Source: Caldifarciminota bacterium
GTDB lineage: Bacteria; Hydrothermota; Tepidihabitantia; Tepidihabitantales; Tepidihabitantaceae
DNA length: 32,684 nucleotides
Assembly (NCBI GenBank): GCA_026397595.1
Contig: JAPLUO010000006.1
Span: 1-32,684 of the forward strand
Direction of reading: 5' to 3'
In this document: one piece after another, positions 3,047-14,473 of the stretch
How positions within the stretch are numbered: position 1 is the first letter of the stretch
How the letters are laid out: the number at the start of each line of letters is the position of its first letter
Notes under the pieces: model-generated
Seen by the model: only the letters and a program-made list of their open reading frames with translations
The model's database searches: none
What the model was told of the DNA's origin: nothing
Program-made: the position numbers and the translations under genes

Positions 3047-5053
3047 GTGAGAGTAAGAGTGTCCGTACTGGCACTGCTGATGGCAGTGCTTCCCGCGCTC
3101 GTGTTCGCATACCCGGGCTTCGGTGGCGGGAGAGGATTGCTGCGCGTCCAGAACGCGCTCGTGGAAGACGAAGCCGGACTGACCATATCGGCCCACGCAC
3201 TCGGACGCAACGCGATATTCAATAGCCCGACGAATATCTACCAGGAAGGCTACAAAGGATGGGTCCTGGACCTGATTGCGCCGGAGCTGAGCTACGCGCC
3301 GGTTGTCAACAAGTATTTCGGCGTGGAGGTGTTCGGCTCGTGGGGCGGGGTCTTCCAGACACCGACGAGGCCTAACAGTAACAAGTTCACGATGGGCACG
3401 CACGACCTCAAAGCCGGCGGCAAGGTATCCATACCGATTGTGCCGGTTCTGAAAGTGGGCTTCACCAGCTCCTACACGTTCATGTCAGGCAGAAACGACA
3501 CAAACGAAGTGTGGTGGCTCGACAAGTACGCGCTGCCGCAAGCGGGCGATCCGAATCTCCCTCCTGGTGTCGCCAGATCGAAGCTCTCCTGGACCGGCCT
3601 CGTGACCCTGCAGCTTCAGGACGTGCTGGCGACCGCGCCCAACCTCATGTTCAACTACGGCAAGATCAATGAGGAAACCCGGTACGGCATGGGGGTGGAA
3701 CTGGCCGGCCGCGCCTTCGCGCTGTTCGGGGAATTCCTCTCGCGGCAGCCGCCGGGATCCAAAGGCATGTTCGATCTCAGCAAGACCGGCACTGGCGGCC
3801 ACATCTACATCACTCCCGGCGTCGTGTTCGGCAACGTCAGCGATGTCGCGGTGAAGGCCGCATACTCGTTCGCTATGGGCGACCACTCCAACAACGAGTT
3901 GATAGGTGGCATCATCATCGGAACGGGGTTCGGCGCGCGCCCGAAGGCCGAGTACGGCACGATTACCGGTACGGTTACCGATGAGAAGACCGGCGCGGCG
4001 CTCGCCGCGAACGTCGGGTTCCCGGAGAACCCGAAAATGGCAGACATCGCGACCCAGGCGAGTTCCGGCGTCTTCAAGGCGCGCAAGGTGCCTGTGGGCT
4101 CAGTAACCGTTGAGGCCAGCGCTGATGGCTACCAGAAGCAGACCGTGCCGATCGCGGTCGAGAACAATAAGGTCTCCGAGTACGCCTTCAAGCTGCGGCC
4201 GCTCAAGACCTACGGCACTATCGCCGGTACCGTCCTTAACGCTGTAACCAGCGCACCGATGGCCGCCCGCATCGAGTTCCCCGGCTCCCAGATTCAGTCG
4301 ACCAACTCCGACGCCTCCGCCGGCGCGTTCAAGGTCGCCAGGGTTGAGACCGGCGTCTACACCGTGACCGCGAGCGCCGACAAGTACATCAAGGCGACCG
4401 TCACCCTGGCGGTCGAGGACGGCAAGCTGGCTGTCGCAACGTTCAAGCTCACGCCGGCCGCGGGCGCAGTCACAGTCACCGGCAAGGTCTACGATAAGAA
4501 GACGAACGCCCCGCTATCGGCCACAGTCGCGTTCAACGACGCCGTGGTCACCACCGATCCGGCGACCGGCGTCTACAAGGCCCAGTTGAACCCCGGCTCC
4601 TACACGGTCGTGGTCGAGTCGAAAGACTACGTGAAGCAGACCGCTGCGCTCATCATCGAGAAAGACAAGCCGCTCGTGCGTGACTTCGCAATGCTCAAGG
4701 TAGGCATGTCAATCACGCTCAGGGGTATCTACTTCGACTTCGACAAGTCGACCATCAAGCCCGAGTCGCGGCCGGCCCTCGAGGACGCCGCCAAGATGCT
4801 CAATGAGAACCCGACCATCAACGTCGAGATCCAGGGCCACACCGACAGCAAGGGCTCGGACTCGTACAACCTGTCGCTGTCCGACCGGCGGGCCGCCTCA
4901 GTGGTCGCTTACCTCACGCAGAACCTCGGCATCGACCGCTCGCGCCTGACCTCCCGTGGTTACGGTGAGAGCCAGCCGATTGCCACGAACGACACCGACG
5001 CCGGCCGGGCCTTGAACCGCCGGGTCGAGTTCATGATCCTCGGCGAGAAGTAG
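3047..5053 (+). CDS. Large OmpA-family outer-membrane protein with three carboxypeptidase-regulatory-like domains
   Basis: The GTG at 3047 is the likely start: AGGAGG (3037-3042) lies 4 nt upstream, and it yields a signal peptide (RVRVSVLALLMAVLPALVFA) ending before YPGFGGG. An upstream in-frame GTG at 2981 lacks these. The 668-aa product has an N-terminal barrel-like region to ~300 and three ~85-residue domains starting at ~303, 389 and 475. Each domain begins (T)(I/V)xGxV and ends in a (G/S)xxxVxVxxxxYxKxT unit, as in carboxypeptidase D regulatory-like/PEGA folds. An OmpA C-terminal domain (560-668) has FDFDKSTIKPES, GHTDSKGSDSYN and LSDRRAASV. The conserved TD and RRA residues are those that bind diaminopimelate in peptidoglycan. 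It should tether the outer membrane to the wall. Confidence 0.85.
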   Translation: MRVRVSVLALLMAVLPALVFAYPGFGGGRGLLRVQNALVEDEAGLTISAHALGRNAIFNSPTNIYQEGYKGWVLDLIAPELSYAPVVNKYFGVEVFGSWGGVFQTPTRPNSNKFTMGTHDLKAGGKVSIPIVPVLKVGFTSSYTFMSGRNDTNEVWWLDKYALPQAGDPNLPPGVARSKLSWTGLVTLQLQDVLATAPNLMFNYGKINEETRYGMGVELAGRAFALFGEFLSRQPPGSKGMFDLSKTGTGGHIYITPGVVFGNVSDVAVKAAYSFAMGDHSNNELIGGIIIGTGFGARPKAEYGTITGTVTDEKTGAALAANVGFPENPKMADIATQASSGVFKARKVPVGSVTVEASADGYQKQTVPIAVENNKVSEYAFKLRPLKTYGTIAGTVLNAVTSAPMAARIEFPGSQIQSTNSDASAGAFKVARVETGVYTVTASADKYIKATVTLAVEDGKLAVATFKLTPAAGAVTVTGKVYDKKTNAPLSATVAFNDAVVTTDPATGVYKAQLNPGSYTVVVESKDYVKQTAALIIEKDKPLVRDFAMLKVGMSITLRGIYFDFDKSTIKPESRPALEDAAKMLNENPTINVEIQGHTDSKGSDSYNLSLSDRRAASVVAYLTQNLGIDRSRLTSRGYGESQPIATNDTDAGRALNRRVEFMILGEK

Positions 5054-5207: not shown

Positions 5208-8200
5208 ATGCTGGATAAGCGGCCCGAGGCGATTCAGGCGTATCTTGTGGCGCTCCGTCGCGCGCTCGCGCGTGGCGACTCGACCGAACACACCCACCGG
5301 TCCGCGCTGATAGACCTCGTTCACTCGCTGGTGAAGGGCGTGCACTGCGTGAACGAACCCAAGGGCCTGAAGCACGGCCATCCCGACATCAAAGTCACGC
5401 TGGGCGAGACGCCGATCGGCTACATCGAGACCAAAGACATCGGGCTCGACCTTGCCGAGATAACCGAGTCGGCCCAACTCCGGCGCTACCTGCGAGAGAT
5501 TCCCAACCTCCTGCTCACCGACTACCTTACGTTCATCTGGTTCGAGAACGGCCACGAGCGGACGCGGGCGAGCCTCGCGGTGCTTGCGGGCAAGGACAAG
5601 CTGCGCGCGGTCGAAGGCCAGGTTGCCGCCCTCGCCGACCTGCTCGTCGAATTCTGCCGGGCCGAACTCAAGACAATCGCCAGCCCGAAAGAACTGGCCC
5701 AGCGCATGGCCAGCCTTGCCCGCATGACCCGCCGCCTCATCGCCGAGGCGCTGGCCGCCGAACCCGCGACCGGCGACCTTCACGCCCAACTCAAGGCCTT
5801 CCGCGAAGTGCTCCTGCCCGACATCGACGAGACCAAGTTCGCGGACATGTACGCCCAGACCATCTGCTACGGCCTGTTCGCGGGCATCTGCAACTCCAAG
5901 TTTCCCCAGGCCTTTGCCCGCGAGAACGCGGCCGACAACCTGCCGCCGACCAACCCGTTCCTGCGCCAACTCTTCCATCACATCGTCGGCCCGGAACTGA
6001 ACGAGAAGGTCAGAAGCGCGGTGGACCAGATTGTCTTCCTGCTGCGCCACGCCGACGTGCAGGCAATCCTCCAAGACTTCGGCAAGCGCACCCGCAAAGA
6101 AGACCCGGTCGTCCACTTCTACGAAACGTTCCTCGCCGAGTACGACCCCAAACTCCGCAAGAGCCGCGGCGTCTACTACACGCCCGAGCCGATAGTCTCG
6201 TTCATCGTCCGTTCCGTTGACCACCTGCTCAAGACGAAGTTCAACAAGCCGATGGGCGTAGCCGACCCGGCCGTGTTGACCCTTGACCCGGCAACCGGCA
6301 CTGCGACCTTCCTCCATGCCGACGTGAAGCTCATCTACGAGCGGGTCTGTGAGCACGGCCAGTACGGTACGTGGTCCGGCTACGTCCGCGACAACCTCCT
6401 GCCGCGCATCTTCGGCTTCGAACTCCTGATGGCTCCGTACGCCGTCGCGCACCTCAAACTCGGCCTGCTCCTGCAGGAAACCGGCTACGACTTCAGCTCC
6501 GACGAACGCCTCGGCATCTTCCTGACCAATACCCTTGAAGAGGCGGCCAAGAAGTCAGATATGCTCTTCGCCCAGTGGATTTCCGAAGAATCCAACGCCG
6601 CCTCGACTATCAAGAAAGACAAGCCTGTCATGGTCGTCTTCGGCAACCCGCCCTACTCAGGACACTCCGCCAACAAGGGCGACTGGATACGCGGCCTCGT
6701 GCGCGACTACTACTTCGTGGACGGTCAGCCCTTGGGCGAGCGCAACCCGAAGTGGCTACAGGACGATTACGTGAAGTTCATCCGCTGGGGCCAGTGGCGC
6801 ATAGAGAAAACTGGTGCCGGCATCCTCGCCTACATCACCAACAACGGCTATCTCGACAACCCGACCTTCCGCGGTATGCGCCAGCAGTTGATGCAAGCAT
6901 TCACAGAAATCTACATCCTCGACCTGCATGGCAACAGCAAGAAGAAGGAGACCGCGCCAGACGGTAGCAAGGACGAGAACGTCTTTGACATCCAGCAGGG
7001 CGTCTGCATCGGCATCTTCGTCAAGGAACCCGGCAAGACCGGTCCGGCACAGGTGTATCATGCCGACCTCTATGGAGACCGACAGAGCAAGTACAAGTTC
7101 CTGCTCTCCGAAGACATTGCCTCGGTGAATTGGACGAAGCTAACGCCTTCCTCGCCAACGTATCTATTCGTACCTCAGGACGAACGCCGCAGAGCAGAGT
7201 ACGAGACCGCCTGGAAGATATCGGACGTCATGCCCGCGTCGAGCGTGGGAGTCGTCACTGCCCGCGATGAACTGACAATTGCCTGGAGCGCCGACGAGAT
7301 GTGGCGACGCGTCAACGACTTCGTCGGCCTGCCACCGGAGGCCGCACGAGAGAAGTTCCAGCTTGGGCCGGATGTCCGCGACTGGAAAGTGACCCTCGCC
7401 CAGGCGGACATCCGGGACAGCGGGCCAAGTCGTGCCAAACTGGCCCGCATCCTCTACCGCCCATTCGATGTGCGACACACCTACTACACCGGCCGAACGC
7501 GCGGGTTCATCTGTATGCCTCGGCCGGAGAACATGTCTCACATGCTGGCTCGTGCGAATCTTGGGTTGGTGTCAGCGAGGAGCAATAGGTCAGAGTCTCC
7601 CGATCACTTCTTGTGCTCGCGAGAAATCACGGAAGCCAAGACTGGCGAGTCTACGACACAATCCTGCACGTTTCCGCTCTACGTCTACTCCGTCGTTGGA
7701 CGCAAAGGAGAGCAGCGACGGCTGGAAGACACTGAGCTGTCGCCGTGGCCGGCGGGGAAGAATGGGCGGAGGCCGAATCTGAGTCCGAAGTTCGTCGCGG
7801 AGATGGAGGCGAAGCTGGGGCTGAGGTTCGTGCCAGAGGGAGCCGAAGGCTCTTTGGAGTGCGGCAGCAAAGCTGCCGCTTTGTCCCCGTCGCGCTCCAC
7901 CGGAAAAGCGGGAGCTGCGCTCCCGCAGTCCAAAGACGTGTTCACGCCGGAAGACGTGTTCGACTACATCTACGCCGTGTTCCATTCTCCGACGTATCGG
8001 AAGCGGTACGCCGAGTTCCTGAAGATCGACTTCCCGCGCGTGCCGCTGACTTCGGACAAGAAGCTGTTCTGGAAGCTCGTCGCGCTTGGCCGCGAGTTGG
8101 TCGCCCTGCACCTGCTGGAATCGCCCAAGGTCAACGACTTCGTGACCAGGTTCACGGTCAAAGGCAGCGACACGGTCGGAAAGGTACAGTACACGCCCTC

Positions 8201-8561
8201 ACCCCAACCCTCTCCCAAAGGGAGAGGGAGTTCCTCTCTCCTGCCAGCGGGAGGGGAGGCGAAGGCGAAGCGCGGCCGTTCCTCTGTTCCCTCTCCCTTG
8301 AAGGGAGAGGGAGAGGGTGAGGGTGAGTCCGGCCGCGTCTACATCAACGACGAGCAGTACTTCGAGGGCGTGAAGCCGGAGTGGTTCGAGTTCCACATCG
8401 GCGGATACCAGGTACTTCAGAAGTGGCTCAAGGACCGCAAGGGCCGCAAGCTCTCGAACGACGACATCACGCACTACCAGCGCGTCGTCGTGGCTATCAA
8501 AGAAACCATCCGCCTGATGGCGGACGTAGACAAGACCATTCCGAACTGGCCGATAGAGTAG
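5208..8561 (+). CDS. Single-chain type ISP/IIG-like restriction-modification enzyme
   Basis: The 1117-aa product joins an N-terminal PD-(D/E)xK nuclease to an adenine N6-methyltransferase and a type ISP-like specificity region. Nuclease: D60 in GHPDI and E74-T-K76. Methyltransferase: GVYYTPEPIVSFIV, then motif I as DPATGTATF (360-368, usual form DPACGTGTF) and motif IV NPPY (480-483). C-terminal region: blocks like YRPFDVRHTYYTGRTRGF and FPLYVYSV known from type ISP specificity domains. No helicase motifs are seen, so it resembles helicase-free type IIG/ISP enzymes. It should methylate and cut foreign DNA at one recognition site. Two palindromic elements are inserted in frame (residues ~882-909 and ~997-1040). 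No Shine-Dalgarno precedes the ATG. The repeat-protein gene starts 8 nt after the stop. Confidence 0.88.
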   Translation: MLDKRPEAIQAYLVALRRALARGDSTEHTHRSALIDLVHSLVKGVHCVNEPKGLKHGHPDIKVTLGETPIGYIETKDIGLDLAEITESAQLRRYLREIPNLLLTDYLTFIWFENGHERTRASLAVLAGKDKLRAVEGQVAALADLLVEFCRAELKTIASPKELAQRMASLARMTRRLIAEALAAEPATGDLHAQLKAFREVLLPDIDETKFADMYAQTICYGLFAGICNSKFPQAFARENAADNLPPTNPFLRQLFHHIVGPELNEKVRSAVDQIVFLLRHADVQAILQDFGKRTRKEDPVVHFYETFLAEYDPKLRKSRGVYYTPEPIVSFIVRSVDHLLKTKFNKPMGVADPAVLTLDPATGTATFLHADVKLIYERVCEHGQYGTWSGYVRDNLLPRIFGFELLMAPYAVAHLKLGLLLQETGYDFSSDERLGIFLTNTLEEAAKKSDMLFAQWISEESNAASTIKKDKPVMVVFGNPPYSGHSANKGDWIRGLVRDYYFVDGQPLGERNPKWLQDDYVKFIRWGQWRIEKTGAGILAYITNNGYLDNPTFRGMRQQLMQAFTEIYILDLHGNSKKKETAPDGSKDENVFDIQQGVCIGIFVKEPGKTGPAQVYHADLYGDRQSKYKFLLSEDIASVNWTKLTPSSPTYLFVPQDERRRAEYETAWKISDVMPASSVGVVTARDELTIAWSADEMWRRVNDFVGLPPEAAREKFQLGPDVRDWKVTLAQADIRDSGPSRAKLARILYRPFDVRHTYYTGRTRGFICMPRPENMSHMLARANLGLVSARSNRSESPDHFLCSREITEAKTGESTTQSCTFPLYVYSVVGRKGEQRRLEDTELSPWPAGKNGRRPNLSPKFVAEMEAKLGLRFVPEGAEGSLECGSKAAALSPSRSTGKAGAALPQSKDVFTPEDVFDYIYAVFHSPTYRKRYAEFLKIDFPRVPLTSDKKLFWKLVALGRELVALHLLESPKVNDFVTRFTVKGSDTVGKVQYTPSPQPSPKGRGSSSLLPAGGEAKAKRGRSSVPSPLKGEGEGEGESGRVYINDEQYFEGVKPEWFEFHIGGYQVLQKWLKDRKGRKLSNDDITHYQRVVVAIKETIRLMADVDKTIPNWPIE
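7853..7934. repeat. Palindromic repeat element inserted in frame in the restriction-modification gene
   Basis: Terminal inverted repeats TTTGGAGTGCGG (7853-7864) and CCGCAGTCCAAA (7923-7934) match at 11 of 12 positions. Inside are GCGGCAGC-AAA-GCTGCCGC (7861-7879) and CGGGAGC-TGC-GCTCCCG (7909-7925). It encodes a low-complexity Ala/Ser-rich stretch without stops. A 15-nt core, GTGCGGCAGCAAAGC, recurs on the other strand at 31998-32012. From memory this resembles a dispersed palindromic family found in several environmental phyla. Confidence 0.7.
8196..8327. repeat. Second palindromic (CCCTCACCCC-type) element inserted in frame
   Basis: CTCACCCCAACCCTCTCCC (8198-8216) and GGGAGAGGGTGAGGGTGAG (8309-8327) are inverted repeats matching at 17 of 19 positions. 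Between them are further CTCTCCC/GGGAGAG repeats. It encodes the peptide core PSPQPSPKGRG, a hallmark of a widespread dispersed repeat that turns up inside genes and intergenic regions of many bacteria. The reading frame stays open through it. Confidence 0.75.
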
Positions 8562-8569
8562 GAGGTATA

Positions 8570-9661
8570 GTGGCTAAGCGGCAATCAGGTTCCCGGACAG
8601 CACAGCAGGCGAGTGCGCATCCCCAGAGACCGCGCTATCCGAAATGGAGTGAGGCAGAGAGCCGCGTTGCGGACCGTTTCGCCCGGGCCATCGTGAGCGG
8701 CTGGTATCCGAACGTCAATCAGGCGTTGCCCGACTGCCGTCGCGAGTTGGCGCACGTGACTCGGGGGTTGCAGCGGACCGATGATGCTGTTGCATGGAAG
8801 CTCCTGTGCCGTGCATACGATTTCGGTCTGCCGCGCCGTATGCACTTCTGGACCAACCAGGAAAGGCGGTTGCTCGAGCGGCACGCCTCGGCTCTGGCGC
8901 GCGGAGAGTGCCCAAAAAGCAGTGCCGCCGTACGCGAGGTTAAGCGGACGTTCGAGCGGGCCGGACTGGAGGTGCGCCATCCCGACAGCGCCATTCGTGA
9001 CCTGCTCAACGTCCGTTCCCGCGCCCTGGGTCGGCCGTGGTATTTGGTCCCTTTCAGTCCCGAGGAAAACCGTGTCATTGACCGCTTCAGTCGGGCGCTG
9101 GCCCGGAACGAGTACCCACATGGGACAGCGGCGGTCGCTGATTGCCGCCGGGCACTTGATCGGGCCGGCATCACCCGTCGCAGGACAGACGTGGCGATAG
9201 CTAACCGCATCAACGACGGGGCACGCGCCTTGGGCCGGGTGTCCAAGTTCGCGCCCTGGAGCGCTTCCGGCGCTCGGATTATCGACCGTTTCACCCGGGC
9301 ACTGGTATCCGACAGGTATCCAACCATAGTCGCCGCGAGCCGCGCCTGCCGGTCCGCCCTGGAGCGTGCGGGACAGCTCGGAAACCGCACCGAGGGCGGA
9401 CTACGCGCCAAGCTGAGAATCCAGGCCATCCGCATGGGCAGGTCCATATTCTGGCCGCGATGGAGCGACGCGGAACTCCGCATCCTCAACCGCTTCGCAC
9501 GTGCCGTCATCCGCGGCGCATACGCGAACGCGAAGGTGGCAGCGGTGCCCTGCCGGCGTGCTCTTGAACGTGCGGGTCTACCCGGCCACGCGCGCGTTCG
9601 CGCAGTCGAGGACAGGCTCTGCCGCCTCGCGTTTGAACTCCGCCACAAGCGGCAGCCGTAA
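8570..9661 (+). CDS. Protein of five exact 68-residue Myb/SANT-like repeats, coupled to the restriction-modification gene
   Basis: The GTG at 8570 is preceded by GGAGG (8561-8565), whose first G is the last base of the upstream TAG, so translation is probably coupled. After a ~20-residue basic leader, the 363-aa product is five tandem units. The key aromatic residue (W-S-x-x-E, F in unit 3) falls at 26, 94, 162, 230 and 298: a constant 68 residues with no indel. The consensus runs W-S-x-x-E-x-R-(V/I)-(I/L)-x-R-F-x-R-A-(L/I), then Y-P, then A-x-x-x-C-R-R-A-L-E-R-A-G, and ends A-x-x-L-G-R. The tryptophan-led helical unit and the Arg excess suggest a DNA-binding homeodomain/Myb/SANT-like fold, but no known family is recognised. 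Being tied to a DNA methyltransferase/nuclease, it may guide or control it; this is inference. Confidence 0.75.
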   Translation: MAKRQSGSRTAQQASAHPQRPRYPKWSEAESRVADRFARAIVSGWYPNVNQALPDCRRELAHVTRGLQRTDDAVAWKLLCRAYDFGLPRRMHFWTNQERRLLERHASALARGECPKSSAAVREVKRTFERAGLEVRHPDSAIRDLLNVRSRALGRPWYLVPFSPEENRVIDRFSRALARNEYPHGTAAVADCRRALDRAGITRRRTDVAIANRINDGARALGRVSKFAPWSASGARIIDRFTRALVSDRYPTIVAASRACRSALERAGQLGNRTEGGLRAKLRIQAIRMGRSIFWPRWSDAELRILNRFARAVIRGAYANAKVAAVPCRRALERAGLPGHARVRAVEDRLCRLAFELRHKRQP

Positions 9662-9786: not shown

Positions 9787-10077
9787 ATGACAGGATGTGC
9801 CAAGCGGCCGGCGAGCGTGCTGTTGCAGGAGCAGGAACGGCTGCTGTTGCAGATGATGTAGCGAGGGCTGGAGCGACTGCTGTTGCAGGACGAGGGCCGG
9901 GTACTGTCGCGGGTGCTGGGGCAAGGGCTGGAGCGAAGGCTGTTGCGAGACGAGGGCCGGGTACTGTTGCGGGTGCTGGGACAAGGGCTGGAGCGAAGGC
10001 TGTTACGAGACGAGGGTCGGGTGATGTTACGGGCGCTGGGACAAGGGCTGCATAGAGGGAAAGGCTCCCCCGGATAG
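9787..10077 (+). pseudogene. Tetrapeptide-repeat reading frame interrupted by one TAG
   Basis: From ATG 9787 the frame runs to a stop at ~10077 with one internal TAG at 9859-9861. After a 10-residue leader it is built of four-residue units of the form x-L-x-(R/Q), for example VLLQ, LLLQ, GLER, RLLR, DEGR, VLGQ. From ~9865 these group into a 20-residue super-repeat, GLER-RLLR-DEGR-VLLR-VLGQ. The interrupted unit reads MM-stop-R where its siblings read xLLR, so a single TTG to TAG change explains it. No family is recognised and expression is unproven. It could be a degenerate gene or a non-coding array that happens to stay open. Confidence 0.35.
9817..10056 (+). repeat. Array of 12-bp units in a 60-bp higher-order repeat
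   Basis: Exactly 20 units of 12 bp, most of the form xxGCTGxxxCGR. From 9865 five different units form a 60-bp block repeated about three times with few changes (blocks beginning GGGCTGGAGCGA at 9865, 9925 and 9985), ending in a truncated copy at 10045. Both strands stay largely open because the period is a multiple of three. Confidence 0.85.
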
Positions 10078-10857: not shown

Positions 10858-11655
10858 CTAGGCCAAACCGGCGAAACGGGCGTAGATGTCGAAGAGCTGC
10901 GGGCCGAAGAAGAGACCGGCCAGTGCGCCCAGCGCGAGGAACGGGCCGAACGGAATCGGCTGGCCGCGCTTGTTCCGGCCGGCCGAGCGGGCAATGAGCC
11001 CGATAACAACGCCGAACACGACCGCGGCGGCCAAAGCCACGGTCAGCCCTTTCAACCCGACAAACGCGCCGATCATCGCCGCGTAGGGCAGGTCGCCAAA
11101 GCCCATCCCCTCTTTCTGGTCGACGCCGAACCGGCGGAACACGCCGGCCAGCACATACCGCCACAGTAACCAGGCAAAGAGGATGAACCCGGCACCAACC
11201 GCGGCGCCGGCGAGTGCGCCCTTGAGTTCGGGCGGCGGGGCAACCAGCCCGCCCGCCAGCCCGAGCACCAGTCCCGTGACACTGAAGCCGAATGGGATAA
11301 TCTGGTGGTCGAGGTCAATGAGCGCGGTGATGATGAGCAGCGAGATAAACACGAGGACTTTGACCGTCAGCAGGCTGAAGCCAAACCGGGCGTAGGCCGC
11401 AACAAAAAGCAGCCCGGTGAGTGCCTCAATCAGCGGATAGCGGACCGATATCGGCTTGCCGCAGTCGCGACACCGGCCGCGCAGGATGAGCCAGCTCAGC
11501 ACCGGGATGTTATCGTAAGGTCGTATCGGCTTCCGGCAGCGCGGGCAGTGCGATGGCGGTGAGGAGATTGACTTGTGCAGCGGGACGCGCCAGATAACGA
11601 CGTTGAAGAAGCTGCCGAAAACCAGCCCGAGCAGGGCTGCCAGCGCCCAGATCAC
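10858..11655 (-). CDS. pilD: Prepilin peptidase (type IV pilus leader peptidase/methylase)
   Basis: The 265-aa polytopic protein has every section of the PilD/GspO family. The N-terminal cytoplasmic loop carries two zinc pairs, C37-x-x-C40 and C62-x-x-C65, followed by RYPLIEALTG. First catalytic Asp is in ALIDLDHQIIP (D114), second in GFGDLPYAA (D188), then PFGPFLALGAL. It cleaves the short leader of prepilins at the inner membrane and N-methylates the new N-terminus; five pilin substrates are encoded in this window. In the second motif the usual GD-(V/I/F)-K is GD-L-P, a mild oddity. The GTG start overlaps by 4 nt (GTGA) the TGA that ends the extended pilT frame. Confidence 0.92.
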   Translation of the reverse strand: MIWALAALLGLVFGSFFNVVIWRVPLHKSISSPPSHCPRCRKPIRPYDNIPVLSWLILRGRCRDCGKPISVRYPLIEALTGLLFVAAYARFGFSLLTVKVLVFISLLIITALIDLDHQIIPFGFSVTGLVLGLAGGLVAPPPELKGALAGAAVGAGFILFAWLLWRYVLAGVFRRFGVDQKEGMGFGDLPYAAMIGAFVGLKGLTVALAAAVVFGVVIGLIARSAGRNKRGQPIPFGPFLALGALAGLFFGPQLFDIYARFAGLA

Positions 11656-11819
11656 CGCGAATTGGGCAGGACCGGCTGTCCTTCTTCCGAAGGCGCGAAG
11701 AGCTTCTTATCGGTCGCGATCGCGTGGGCGGTGTCAGCCGAAATCAGCCCTTTGCGCAGGAGCATCGCCAGGCTCTGGTCCATGGTCTGCATGCCGTACT
11801 GGGAACCGATCTGGACCAG
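11652..11819 (-). pseudogene. PilT C-terminal remnant beyond an in-frame TAG
   Basis: Read in the same frame past the TAG at 11820-11822, the sequence stays open for 55 codons, beginning LVQIGSQYGMQTMDQSL and AMLLRKGLIS. This is plainly the conserved C-terminal helix pair of PilT. The frame ends at a TGA (11652-11654) that overlaps the pilD GTG. The stretch is therefore the missing end of pilT, cut off by one nonsense codon, by sequencing error or by a readthrough arrangement. Confidence 0.85.
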
Positions 11820-12779
11820 CTAGGCAACCTGGTGCGACTTGCTCTCGCGAATCAGGTTCTTGACCGCGGGCGTGGCAATCAGCACCTCCATCGCCGAAAC
11901 GCGGCCCCGCTGGTCCTTCCGCGGCAGCAGCGTCTGTGAGATAATGCCGCGAATGACGTTCGCAAATATCTGGCGCACGTAGTCGTGCTGGTCCGGCGGG
12001 AAAACGTCGATGACCCGGTCCACGGTCTGCGCCACGCTGTTCGTGTGCAGGGTCGAGAGCACGAAATGCCCGGTCTCGGCCGCGGTCAGGGCCAACTGGA
12101 TGGTCTCGAGGTCGCGCATCTCCCCGACGAAGATGACGTTCGGGTCCTCACGCAGGCAGGCGCGCAGCGCGTCGGCAAATGACCGGGAGTGGGTGCCGAT
12201 TTCCCGTTGGCTGATCAGGCAGTTCTTGCCCTGGAAGATGTACTCAATCGGGTCTTCAATCGTGATGATTCGCGCCGATTGCTCCGCGTCAATCCGGTCG
12301 ATCATGCTGGCCAGCGTCGTTGACTTTCCGCAGCCGGTGGGACCGGTCACCAGCACCAGCCCGGAAGTGCAGCGCGTCAATTCCAGCACCGACTCGGGTG
12401 CGGGGAGTTCCTCAAGCGACCGGATTCTTGCCGGTATGATGCGAAATGCCCCGCCGACTCCGGACAGGTCCATGAACACGTTCACCCGGGCACGGACCCG
12501 TTCCGGCGTCACGTACTCGAGGACGACGCTGCCCGCCGGGGCGGCGGCCGTGCCCCAGGTGTATGACAGGTCAAGTTCGCGCCTCTGCTCGACCGCGGAC
12601 CGCTGGTCGTCGGTCAGTATCGAATAGAGCAGCGCCTGCGAGTCCTCGACCGTCAGTGCCGGCCCCGGGATCTTCTTCAGTTTTCCGTTGACCCGGATAA
12701 TCGGCGGCGTGCCGACCGTTATGTGAAGGTCGGAAGCTCCGTACTTGGCTGCGTAGCGCAGCAGTTCGTCAATATTCAT
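11820..12779 (-). CDS. pilT: Type IV pilus retraction ATPase PilT, prematurely stopped
   Basis: The ATG at 12779 gives the canonical PilT start MNIDELLRYAAKYGASDLHITVG; a TTG at 12788 is possible. PilT is the hexameric ATPase that powers pilus depolymerisation. Seen in the 319 aa: Walker A GPTGCGKST (146-154), Asp box IEDPIEYIF, Walker B region VIFVGEMRDLETIQLAL, His box STLHTN, and the retraction motif as AVKNLIRE. A TAG at 11820-11822 ends the frame after SKSHQVA, about 55 residues short of the family's usual length. The remainder is intact downstream. The likely ancestral codon is CAG (Gln). Structured sequence of ~100 nt separates it from pilQ. Confidence 0.9.
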   Translation of the reverse strand: MNIDELLRYAAKYGASDLHITVGTPPIIRVNGKLKKIPGPALTVEDSQALLYSILTDDQRSAVEQRRELDLSYTWGTAAAPAGSVVLEYVTPERVRARVNVFMDLSGVGGAFRIIPARIRSLEELPAPESVLELTRCTSGLVLVTGPTGCGKSTTLASMIDRIDAEQSARIITIEDPIEYIFQGKNCLISQREIGTHSRSFADALRACLREDPNVIFVGEMRDLETIQLALTAAETGHFVLSTLHTNSVAQTVDRVIDVFPPDQHDYVRQIFANVIRGIISQTLLPRKDQRGRVSAMEVLIATPAVKNLIRESKSHQVA

Positions 12780-12877
12780 GGCGCGCAAAGCGCCACGCCC
12801 GACGCGGAACCCTGCGGGCGTCCGACATCAGGCGTGGGGCGTCAGTCGTAAAACGTATGGCGTCTCGTCGGCAGTCG

Positions 12878-14473
12878 CTATTCCTCCGTCTGCCTTACGA
12901 TGTGCGGAATGATAAAGATTATCAGGTCGTTCTTGGTGTGGTTGATCGTGGTCTTCTTGAAGAGCAGGTCGCCCAGAATCGGAATGTCTCCGAGCAAGGG
13001 GATCTTGCCGACGTTCCGGGTCTCTTCATCACGCACCAGGCCGCCAATCACCGCCACCTCGCCGTCGCGTACGGCGATGTTCGACTCGGCCGAACGGCGC
13101 GCGATCATCGGCCGCTGGTCGTCGGCCGAGCCCACCCAGCCGGTAATCGCTTCGACGCTCGGTTTGACGTTCATGTTCACCATGCCGTCGGACGTGACGT
13201 GTGGCGTAACTTGCAACTGGATCGGTACCGACTGGGTCTTCCACGTTGCGAGCACCAGCCCGGTCCTGGGATCGGAGCTGATCTCGCGGATCGGCACGTC
13301 GGTGCCCATGCTGACTATCGCGGTGTGGTTATCCAGCGTCATCGTGCTCGGATTGGCCAGCACCCGTGACTTGCCGCGCGACTGGAGGATATCCATCGTC
13401 GCACTGAACTGCCCCAGGTTGAGCTTGCCCAGTACCATGTTGTTGAAAACCAGCGGCAGTCCGAAGTCTTTGGTGCCGTCGAAGCGGCCGCTGGTGGCCG
13501 ACGCGCTCAGGTTCCACTGGATACCATAGATGTCCGTGGCGCTCAGCGTCGTCTCGACGAACTTGGCCTCAATCATGATCTGCGGCACGGGTTCGTCATA
13601 CTCGGCCAGGAACTCGGCAACCCGTTCCAAGGCTTCGGGGATATCAGTGACGACCACGAGGTTCGTCCGGTTGGAGCCGCCGGCGTCCGCTACGCGACGA
13701 TACCCGACGTCCACGGTTCCTATCGACGAGAGCATCTTCGGTATGATCTTTGCAACGTCAACGGCCTCGGAGTAGTTCAGCTCGAATACGCGCACCTGGG
13801 TCTCGCCGAAAATGTCCTTCTTGACCGGCTTGACCACGATGATGCCATCCTTGCCCTCGACCATGTTACACAGACCCGCCTTCAGCACCGCCTCCAGCCC
13901 CGCCCTGAGCGGCACGTCGCTGAGGCGGACCGTTACGAGTGACTTCACGTCCTGCGTCGCCAGCAGGTTCAGGTTGAACTGGCTGGAAATCATTCGCAGA
14001 ATGTCGGTGAGATCCGCGTCCTTGACGTACAGCGACAGCCGTCTGCCGGCAAACTGATCCTTTTGGTCAGCGACCATGGGCGGCGGAATCGACCGTGTGC
14101 CCAGGTCAACGACCACCAGGCCGTTCTCAACCGTCACCTTGTGCTCGACCGGTACGCGCAGTTGAATCGTCACCCGGAGCCCGGTAGCCGCTTCGCTCGG
14201 CTGCACCGTGACGGCCGTCACCGGGTAATGGGCCGATTCGATCCGGTTCTGCTTGAGCTTCGAGACCGCGCCCATGATGTCAACCACCAGGGACGGCGGG
14301 TCGGTGGATAGGAACGAACTGACGTTGGGATTGCCGGTGCAGGCGACGGTTACACGCACGCCCTCAAGCAGCTTGTCGACCGCGATGTCGGTAACGCTGA
14401 CCTGCTCCTGCGCAATCAGCACCGAGCAGAGGCAGACGACTGCAAGGAATGGAATCGCTATTTTCCTGGTCAT
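12878..14473 (-). CDS. pilQ: Type IV pilus secretin PilQ
   Basis: The 531-aa precursor has a signal peptide (AIPFLAVVCLCSVLIA, cut before QEQ), a single AMIN-like domain (~25-125, peptidoglycan targeting), an STN/N0 domain (~146-215, starting LSLYVKDADLTDILRMIS) and an N1-like domain (~226-295). The secretin barrel (~297-525) has IMIEAKFVET, SRVLANPSTMTLDN and the family signature IPLLGDIPILGDLLF (491-505). It forms the multimeric outer-membrane channel through which the pilus passes. It is shorter than proteobacterial PilQ (one AMIN instead of two or three). The GGGGGAG upstream of the ATG and a 4-nt gap from the upstream gene place it in the pilus operon. Confidence 0.93.
   Translation of the reverse strand: MTRKIAIPFLAVVCLCSVLIAQEQVSVTDIAVDKLLEGVRVTVACTGNPNVSSFLSTDPPSLVVDIMGAVSKLKQNRIESAHYPVTAVTVQPSEAATGLRVTIQLRVPVEHKVTVENGLVVVDLGTRSIPPPMVADQKDQFAGRRLSLYVKDADLTDILRMISSQFNLNLLATQDVKSLVTVRLSDVPLRAGLEAVLKAGLCNMVEGKDGIIVVKPVKKDIFGETQVRVFELNYSEAVDVAKIIPKMLSSIGTVDVGYRRVADAGGSNRTNLVVVTDIPEALERVAEFLAEYDEPVPQIMIEAKFVETTLSATDIYGIQWNLSASATSGRFDGTKDFGLPLVFNNMVLGKLNLGQFSATMDILQSRGKSRVLANPSTMTLDNHTAIVSMGTDVPIREISSDPRTGLVLATWKTQSVPIQLQVTPHVTSDGMVNMNVKPSVEAITGWVGSADDQRPMIARRSAESNIAVRDGEVAVIGGLVRDEETRNVGKIPLLGDIPILGDLLFKKTTINHTKNDLIIFIIPHIVRQTEE

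Follow-up and report, generated by a model that had tools for sequence, protein, structure and literature searches.

A tandem three-helix repeat protein encoded behind a type IIG-like restriction-modification gene belongs to an undescribed, lineage-restricted family of candidate DNA-binding proteins

We analyzed a 32,684-nucleotide stretch of DNA from a Caldifarciminota bacterium (assembly GCA_026397595.1, contig JAPLUO010000006.1, positions 1 to 32,684 of the forward strand; hereafter the window), in which a gene for a single-chain nuclease-methyltransferase of 1117 amino acids (positions 5208–8561) is followed by a gene for a 363-amino-acid protein made of five similar units (8570–9661; features are on the forward strand unless stated otherwise). 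The repeat protein belongs to an undescribed, lineage-restricted family. On balance, we favor the reading that this is a family of tandem three-helix DNA-binding proteins of the Myb/homeodomain-like, helix-turn-helix (HTH) type, and that the window member is likely a sequence-specific regulator not needed for target recognition by the enzyme.

The repeat organization is evident from the protein itself (open reading frame [ORF] with a GTG start at 8570 and stop codon at 9659–9661, isoelectric point [pI] of 11.5, net charge of about +40). Self-identity was 0.31, 0.28, 0.28, and 0.29 at shifts of 68, 136, 204, and 272 residues against a background mean of 0.085 (standard deviation, 0.034; shifts 5 to 299), which places the 68-residue period far from chance. 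This confirms the five 68-residue units described in an earlier note on this DNA, and the recurring aromatic residue that it listed is present as W26, W94, F162, W230, and W298. As defined by a unit model and AlphaFold, the units lie at 8636–8836 (unit 1, in which helix 3 is conserved among relatives), 8843–9040 (unit 2), 9044–9244 (unit 3, used for single-unit structure prediction), 9248–9448 (unit 4), and 9452–9649 (unit 5). The claim that all units keep exactly 68 residues with no indel held for the window protein but not for the family, in which unit-to-unit spacing ranges from 60 to 85, with 68 the commonest value and the extra residues mostly in the stretch that joins helices 2 and 3. 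A constant spacing of 68 is thus a trait of a subgroup and not general evidence of a rigid array.

For one unit, modeled with a 135-unit alignment, AlphaFold predicted three helices at positions 6–20, 27–40, and 49–62 with a predicted local distance difference test score (pLDDT) of 91. The full repeat protein was predicted to contain 15 helices (mean pLDDT, 85), with the units confident and their relative placement uncertain (predicted template modeling score, 0.44). With relative unit orientation uncertain and spacing variable across the family, the rigid array proposed earlier was not borne out. The broader proposal of a modular array of DNA-binding-like domains gained support from the predicted three-helix units, the strongly basic character, and a variable face on helix 3, as far as sequence and models can indicate.

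The units carry Myb-like signatures, W-S/T-x-x-E at helix 1 and R-T/S-x-x-A-V at helix 3, and the unit profile matched c-Myb chains weakly but in register (W-T-x-E-E and R-T-D-N-A-V). Pfam Myb_DNA-bind_6 was matched by 4 of the 135 units with a best E value of 0.018, which is not significant, and the PBX1 homeodomain gave a weak structural match (template modeling score, 0.51). Tandem repeats of Myb/SANT-like and homeodomain-like proteins, such as c-Myb R1R2R3 and telomere-repeat factors, are alike in their three-helix unit (a predicted one here) of similar size, tandem arrangement, basic character, and W-S/T-x-x-E and R-T-x-x-A-V elements in helices 1 and 3. The present unit differs in lacking a significant sequence or fold match to Myb, in its length (68 versus about 52 residues), in a different helix 2 (A-A-x-x-C-x-x-E-L), in a Leu replacing the third Trp, and in a variable helix-3 face, whereas the helices are conserved in Myb.

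Variation within the unit is concentrated on helix 3. Of the 43 helix positions in the 135-unit alignment, the six that vary most (49, 50, 53, 54, 57, and 58) all belong to this helix, where they form one regular face (i, i+1, i+4, i+5, i+8, and i+9) flanked by conserved Arg. The same positions ranked within the top 7 to 9 in a 190-unit set, in a redundancy-reduced set, and, less cleanly, in three of four single-genome sets; the pattern was weakest in the single-genome set of G004, where position 49 fell outside the top 10. Positions 53, 54, and 57 align with the base-contacting residues K182, N183, and N186 of c-Myb, and the chance of all three falling within the top 7 variable positions was 0.003. 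The ratio of nonsynonymous to synonymous substitution rates (dN/dS) was 0.57 on the helix-3 face, compared with 0.28 for the remaining helix positions and 0.39 in the loops. Ortholog pairs of the repeat gene showed a ratio of nonsynonymous to synonymous differences (pN/pS) well below 1 except on one helix face. Together with the alignment of homologs from 8 genomes in the same reading frame, this low pN/pS indicates that the repeat ORF is a real gene and not an antisense ORF. By analogy with zinc-finger arrays, the pattern on helix 3 is consistent with a scaffold that is conserved and a reading surface that changes.

Several observations weigh against sequence-specific binding by Myb-like units. 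Foldseek searches with the unit and the full model against PDB and viral libraries gave no significant fold match, and an hhalign profile comparison with Myb repeats aligned helix 1 only, at 41% probability, so membership in the Myb family is not established. Between orthologs, conservation of the helix-3 face does not exceed that of other variable positions, and the dN/dS of this face is not clearly above 1. Relaxed constraint is therefore an alternative to diversified specificity. In addition, many family members have no recognizable defense neighbor, and no binding site of the repeat protein was identified. The expectation that recognition residues would be kept between orthologs yet differ between units was not borne out, except in unit 1.

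Relaxed constraint would be expected if the repeat protein were a non-specific or RNA-binding basic protein, resembling a nucleoid protein or an RNA chaperone, with helix-3 surfaces variable through lack of constraint. Its very high Arg content, the loose linkage of its units in the full-length prediction, and a putative recognition face that evolves fastest even between orthologs would all agree with such a protein. We nevertheless consider it somewhat unlikely: the variable positions make up one regular helix face with dN above that of loops and are flanked by conserved Arg, and unit 1 of the window subgroup has kept helix 3 nearly unchanged in six relatives.

To collect the family, we used an iterated unit model, which found 190 units, distributed over 47 ORFs and about 36 loci; a genome-wide scan added a few more, for a total of 39 loci. 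Most members have 2 to 6 units, so that repeat number does vary among homologs, a point the earlier note had raised. Of the 147 genomes of the phylum, 8 contain members; these 8 belong to a single taxonomic family, and the named records among them are of candidate division WOR-3. At least a dozen paralogs are encoded in the genome of the window. Repeat genes also occur in the single-contig genome G007, indicating that the family is not an assembly artifact. All members scanned were strongly basic (pI 10.1 to 11.8, charge +17 to +80). As the earlier note had supposed, the repeat protein fell into no known family, with no match in Pfam, NCBIfam, or PADLOC and weak matches only in PHROGs. The best PDB profile-search match, a microcompartment shell protein (E value of 3e-4, in two weak 12.8-bit pieces), was judged to be chance. 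A virus or plasmid origin was rejected, as viral contigs, phages, and plasmids contained no match to the repeat family. Three-gene clusters of repeat proteins at G000:C386 (L011:6515-11650) and G004:C7 (L054:6964-11804) suggest local duplication.

We also characterized the enzyme encoded upstream, which the earlier note had called ISP/IIG-like. It matched PF18135 (type ISP C-terminal specificity domain; E value of 2.4e-89), PF02384 (N6_Mtase; 7.6e-11), Eco57I, and, in PADLOC, REase_MTase_IIG (PDLC03610; 1.5e-298), and its sequence appears to combine the single-chain nuclease, N6 methyltransferase, and specificity domain that define type IIG. In true type ISP enzymes, a superfamily 2 (SF2) helicase-like ATPase forms part of the single chain (PMC4666363). 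No helicase family was matched in the window enzyme at an E value of ≤1 in Pfam. We therefore class it as a IIG-like enzyme, with a recognition domain of the ISP type, and not as a true type ISP enzyme. The window enzyme resembles the type ISP enzymes LlaBIII and LlaGI (PMC4666363, PMC4872093) in its single chain, nuclease-like N terminus, adenine-type methyltransferase, and ISP C-terminal specificity domain but differs in having 1117 amino acids with no SF2 helicase/ATPase domain found.

The enzyme and repeat genes are closely spaced. The GTG of the repeat gene starts 8 nucleotides (nt) past the enzyme stop codon (TAG, 8559–8561), and a ribosome-binding site (AGGAGG, 8560–8565) overlaps this stop, as reported earlier. 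Such tight coupling recurs in another genus, where at G015:C137 the enzyme TAG is followed after 7 nt by the ATG of a six-unit repeat protein. At G002:C64, the stop of an Eco57I-type methyltransferase gene overlaps the TTG start (TTGA) of another six-unit protein. Direct abutment to an intact methyltransferase gene was found at 3 loci against 0.003 expected, and a methyltransferase gene is present within 6 kb at 7 of the 39 loci, against 1.5 expected (about fivefold), expectations that are approximate because genome sizes were rounded, contig ends ignored, and loci counted by hand. The link to restriction-modification is real but loose, and members are often, but not obligatorily, in defense cassettes. 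Homologs are not always beside ISP/IIG methyltransferase genes; most of the 39 loci have other neighbors, which is largely the distribution that the earlier note had held would speak against its proposal. These neighbors include MNT/HepT, PIN, Fic, NucS, UvrD, DUF4062, XRE-type HTH, PAP2, and DUF3108-like genes, with a Fic gene 8 nt downstream of the repeat gene at G015:C251. One two-unit member keeps the same downstream gene (210–211 amino acids) in three genomes (L014:4364-5807, L065:5219-6645, and L068:1248-2685); it is DUF3108-like in the two tested, a conserved but non-defense context.

These arrangements bear on the partnership envisaged in the earlier note, in which the repeat protein would be a dedicated specificity or accessory subunit that tethers the ISP/IIG-like enzyme to DNA or reads extra bases. 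The same coupling in a different genus, the TTGA overlap with a second enzyme type, and the strongly basic array are compatible with this role. However, the enzyme already contains a C-terminal specificity domain (PF18135), a 62%-identical enzyme at G004:C31 has no repeat gene and an unrelated gene next to it, and G007 has repeat genes with no Eco57I or N6_Mtase match in the genome. Repeat genes are also kept where the enzyme has shrunk to a scar, and most paralogs are located elsewhere. Given the 7 loci (of 39) that lie within 6 kb of a methyltransferase gene and the examples of G007 and G004:C31, the consistent co-occurrence with an enzyme gene that marks a specificity subunit was not found. 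A dedicated subunit role is thus unlikely and was not borne out.

The scars themselves derive from the enzyme gene. At G005:C207, the enzyme 3' tail directly follows the enzyme leader (43 bp, 93% identical) in frame, leaving a 30-codon ORF before a retained repeat gene. At G000:C136, the repeat gene comes after a different IIG enzyme and an MNT/HepT pair, from which it is separated by a 29-codon scar of the 3' end of the ISP-type enzyme. In the window, sequence comparison delimits the corresponding 3' tail, ending in VVVAIKETIRLMADVDKTIPNWPIE and the stop codon, at 8481–8561. More widely, the last 60 to 80 bp or so of the enzyme gene turn up as scars that follow or separate unrelated genes; their left ends vary, and their right end is the enzyme stop codon (L083:529-609 and 2217-2297, L009:4010-4090, L044:2435-2494, L058:2976-3029, L119:221-286 and 4688-4759, L120:3255-3301, and L121:3680-3754). 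At least five form in-frame ORFs of about 30 codons with an ATG, such as MLQRVVVAIKETIRLMSDIDKAIPNWPIE and MARRPRVVVSIKETIRLMSEIDKAIPKWPIE, and at several the next gene starts within 10 nt. A recombination scar, a coupling leader, and a small-peptide gene are candidate explanations.

Since the same 80-bp tail precedes different genes (for the repeat protein, a three-Cys-type protein, and proteins of 174 and 211 amino acids) and the contexts of repeat genes are diverse, the repeat gene might be a passenger of recombining defense cassettes that is carried along after methyltransferase genes but does not act on them. We regard this as very unlikely, because it would account for the placement and not for the protein, the repeat gene is under purifying selection, and a short in-frame ORF preserving the coupled start has been retained at two or more loci.

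Within the enzyme gene, a PD-(D/E)xK-like nuclease motif (D60 ... E74-T-K76; 5385–5435), assigned by eye, is invariant in three relatives. Comparison with two relatives (61 to 62% identical) located methyltransferase motif I at 6285–6314, where DPACGTGTFL is changed to DPATGTATFL in the window copy only, and an intact motif IV, NPPY, at 6645–6656. Judged from sequence, the altered motif I may impair cofactor binding by the window enzyme. Two in-frame inserts are absent from both relatives: a dispersed palindromic element at 7840–7940, with about 50 further matches in the genome, and a dispersed inverted-repeat element of the CCCTCACCCCAACCCTCTCCC type at 8191–8328, with about 30.

Directly behind the repeat gene is a 60-bp minisatellite (9818–10050); translated, it would give an amphipathic repeat of 20 residues, GLERRLLRDEGRVLLRVLGQ, interrupted by a stop codon in the first unit. 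Its relatives occupy about 15 loci in the genome, mostly away from repeat genes; one adjoins the C386 repeat-gene cluster. This dispersal indicates no specific link to the repeat protein, and we rejected the minisatellite as its binding array. Genes for type IV pilus/type II secretion components (prepilin peptidase, secretion ATPase, and secretin) lie further downstream on the other strand (10858–14473), placing the enzyme and repeat pair on the border of a housekeeping cluster.

Two well-known classes of modular DNA readers invite comparison. C2H2 zinc-finger arrays of the KRAB-ZNF type offer an analogy only, in that they have expanded in particular lineages, vary in how many tandem units they carry, and keep a conserved scaffold while presumed DNA-contact positions change fastest (PMC3126818, PMC5588721). 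The present family differs in being bacterial, without zinc ligands, and of a three-helix fold. Transcription activator-like effectors (TALEs) and TALE-like proteins (PMC4066763) are alike in their tandem modules, conserved scaffold, and variable positions. However, TALE repeats have 33 to 35 (34) residues, two helices, and a repeat-variable di-residue, whereas the 68-residue three-helix units, which place the present family outside the TALE-like proteins, are 30% identical rather than near-identical, number 2 to 6, and have no one-base-per-unit code.

If the favored reading of a tandem three-helix DNA-binding family holds, each unit of about 68 residues would act as a small DNA-binding domain in which helix 3 reads the DNA, at one unit per few base pairs, and an array of 2 to 6 units would bind a longer site. 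Members would differ in target because the exposed helix-3 face changes fastest. Translational coupling would co-produce the repeat protein and the restriction-modification enzyme, and the repeat protein may regulate its own defense cassette or other loci by sequence-specific DNA binding.

A more far-reaching possibility, which we advance tentatively and hold to be rather doubtful, is that the family might be a bacterial counterpart of zinc-finger arrays: clade-specific, fast-expanding three-helix modules with a diversifying reading helix and a decipherable unit-to-sequence code, used for DNA targeting or regulation in defense and toxin loci. To our knowledge, few modular DNA readers other than eukaryotic zinc fingers and TALEs have a recognition surface that diversifies. 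The present family, with about 45 members, is bacterial, absent from the family libraries searched, and naturally varied at a few positions of one helix, variants that would make the relation of unit to sequence accessible to standard binding selections. If this is true, the family would show how defense and toxin loci are regulated in an uncultured phylum.
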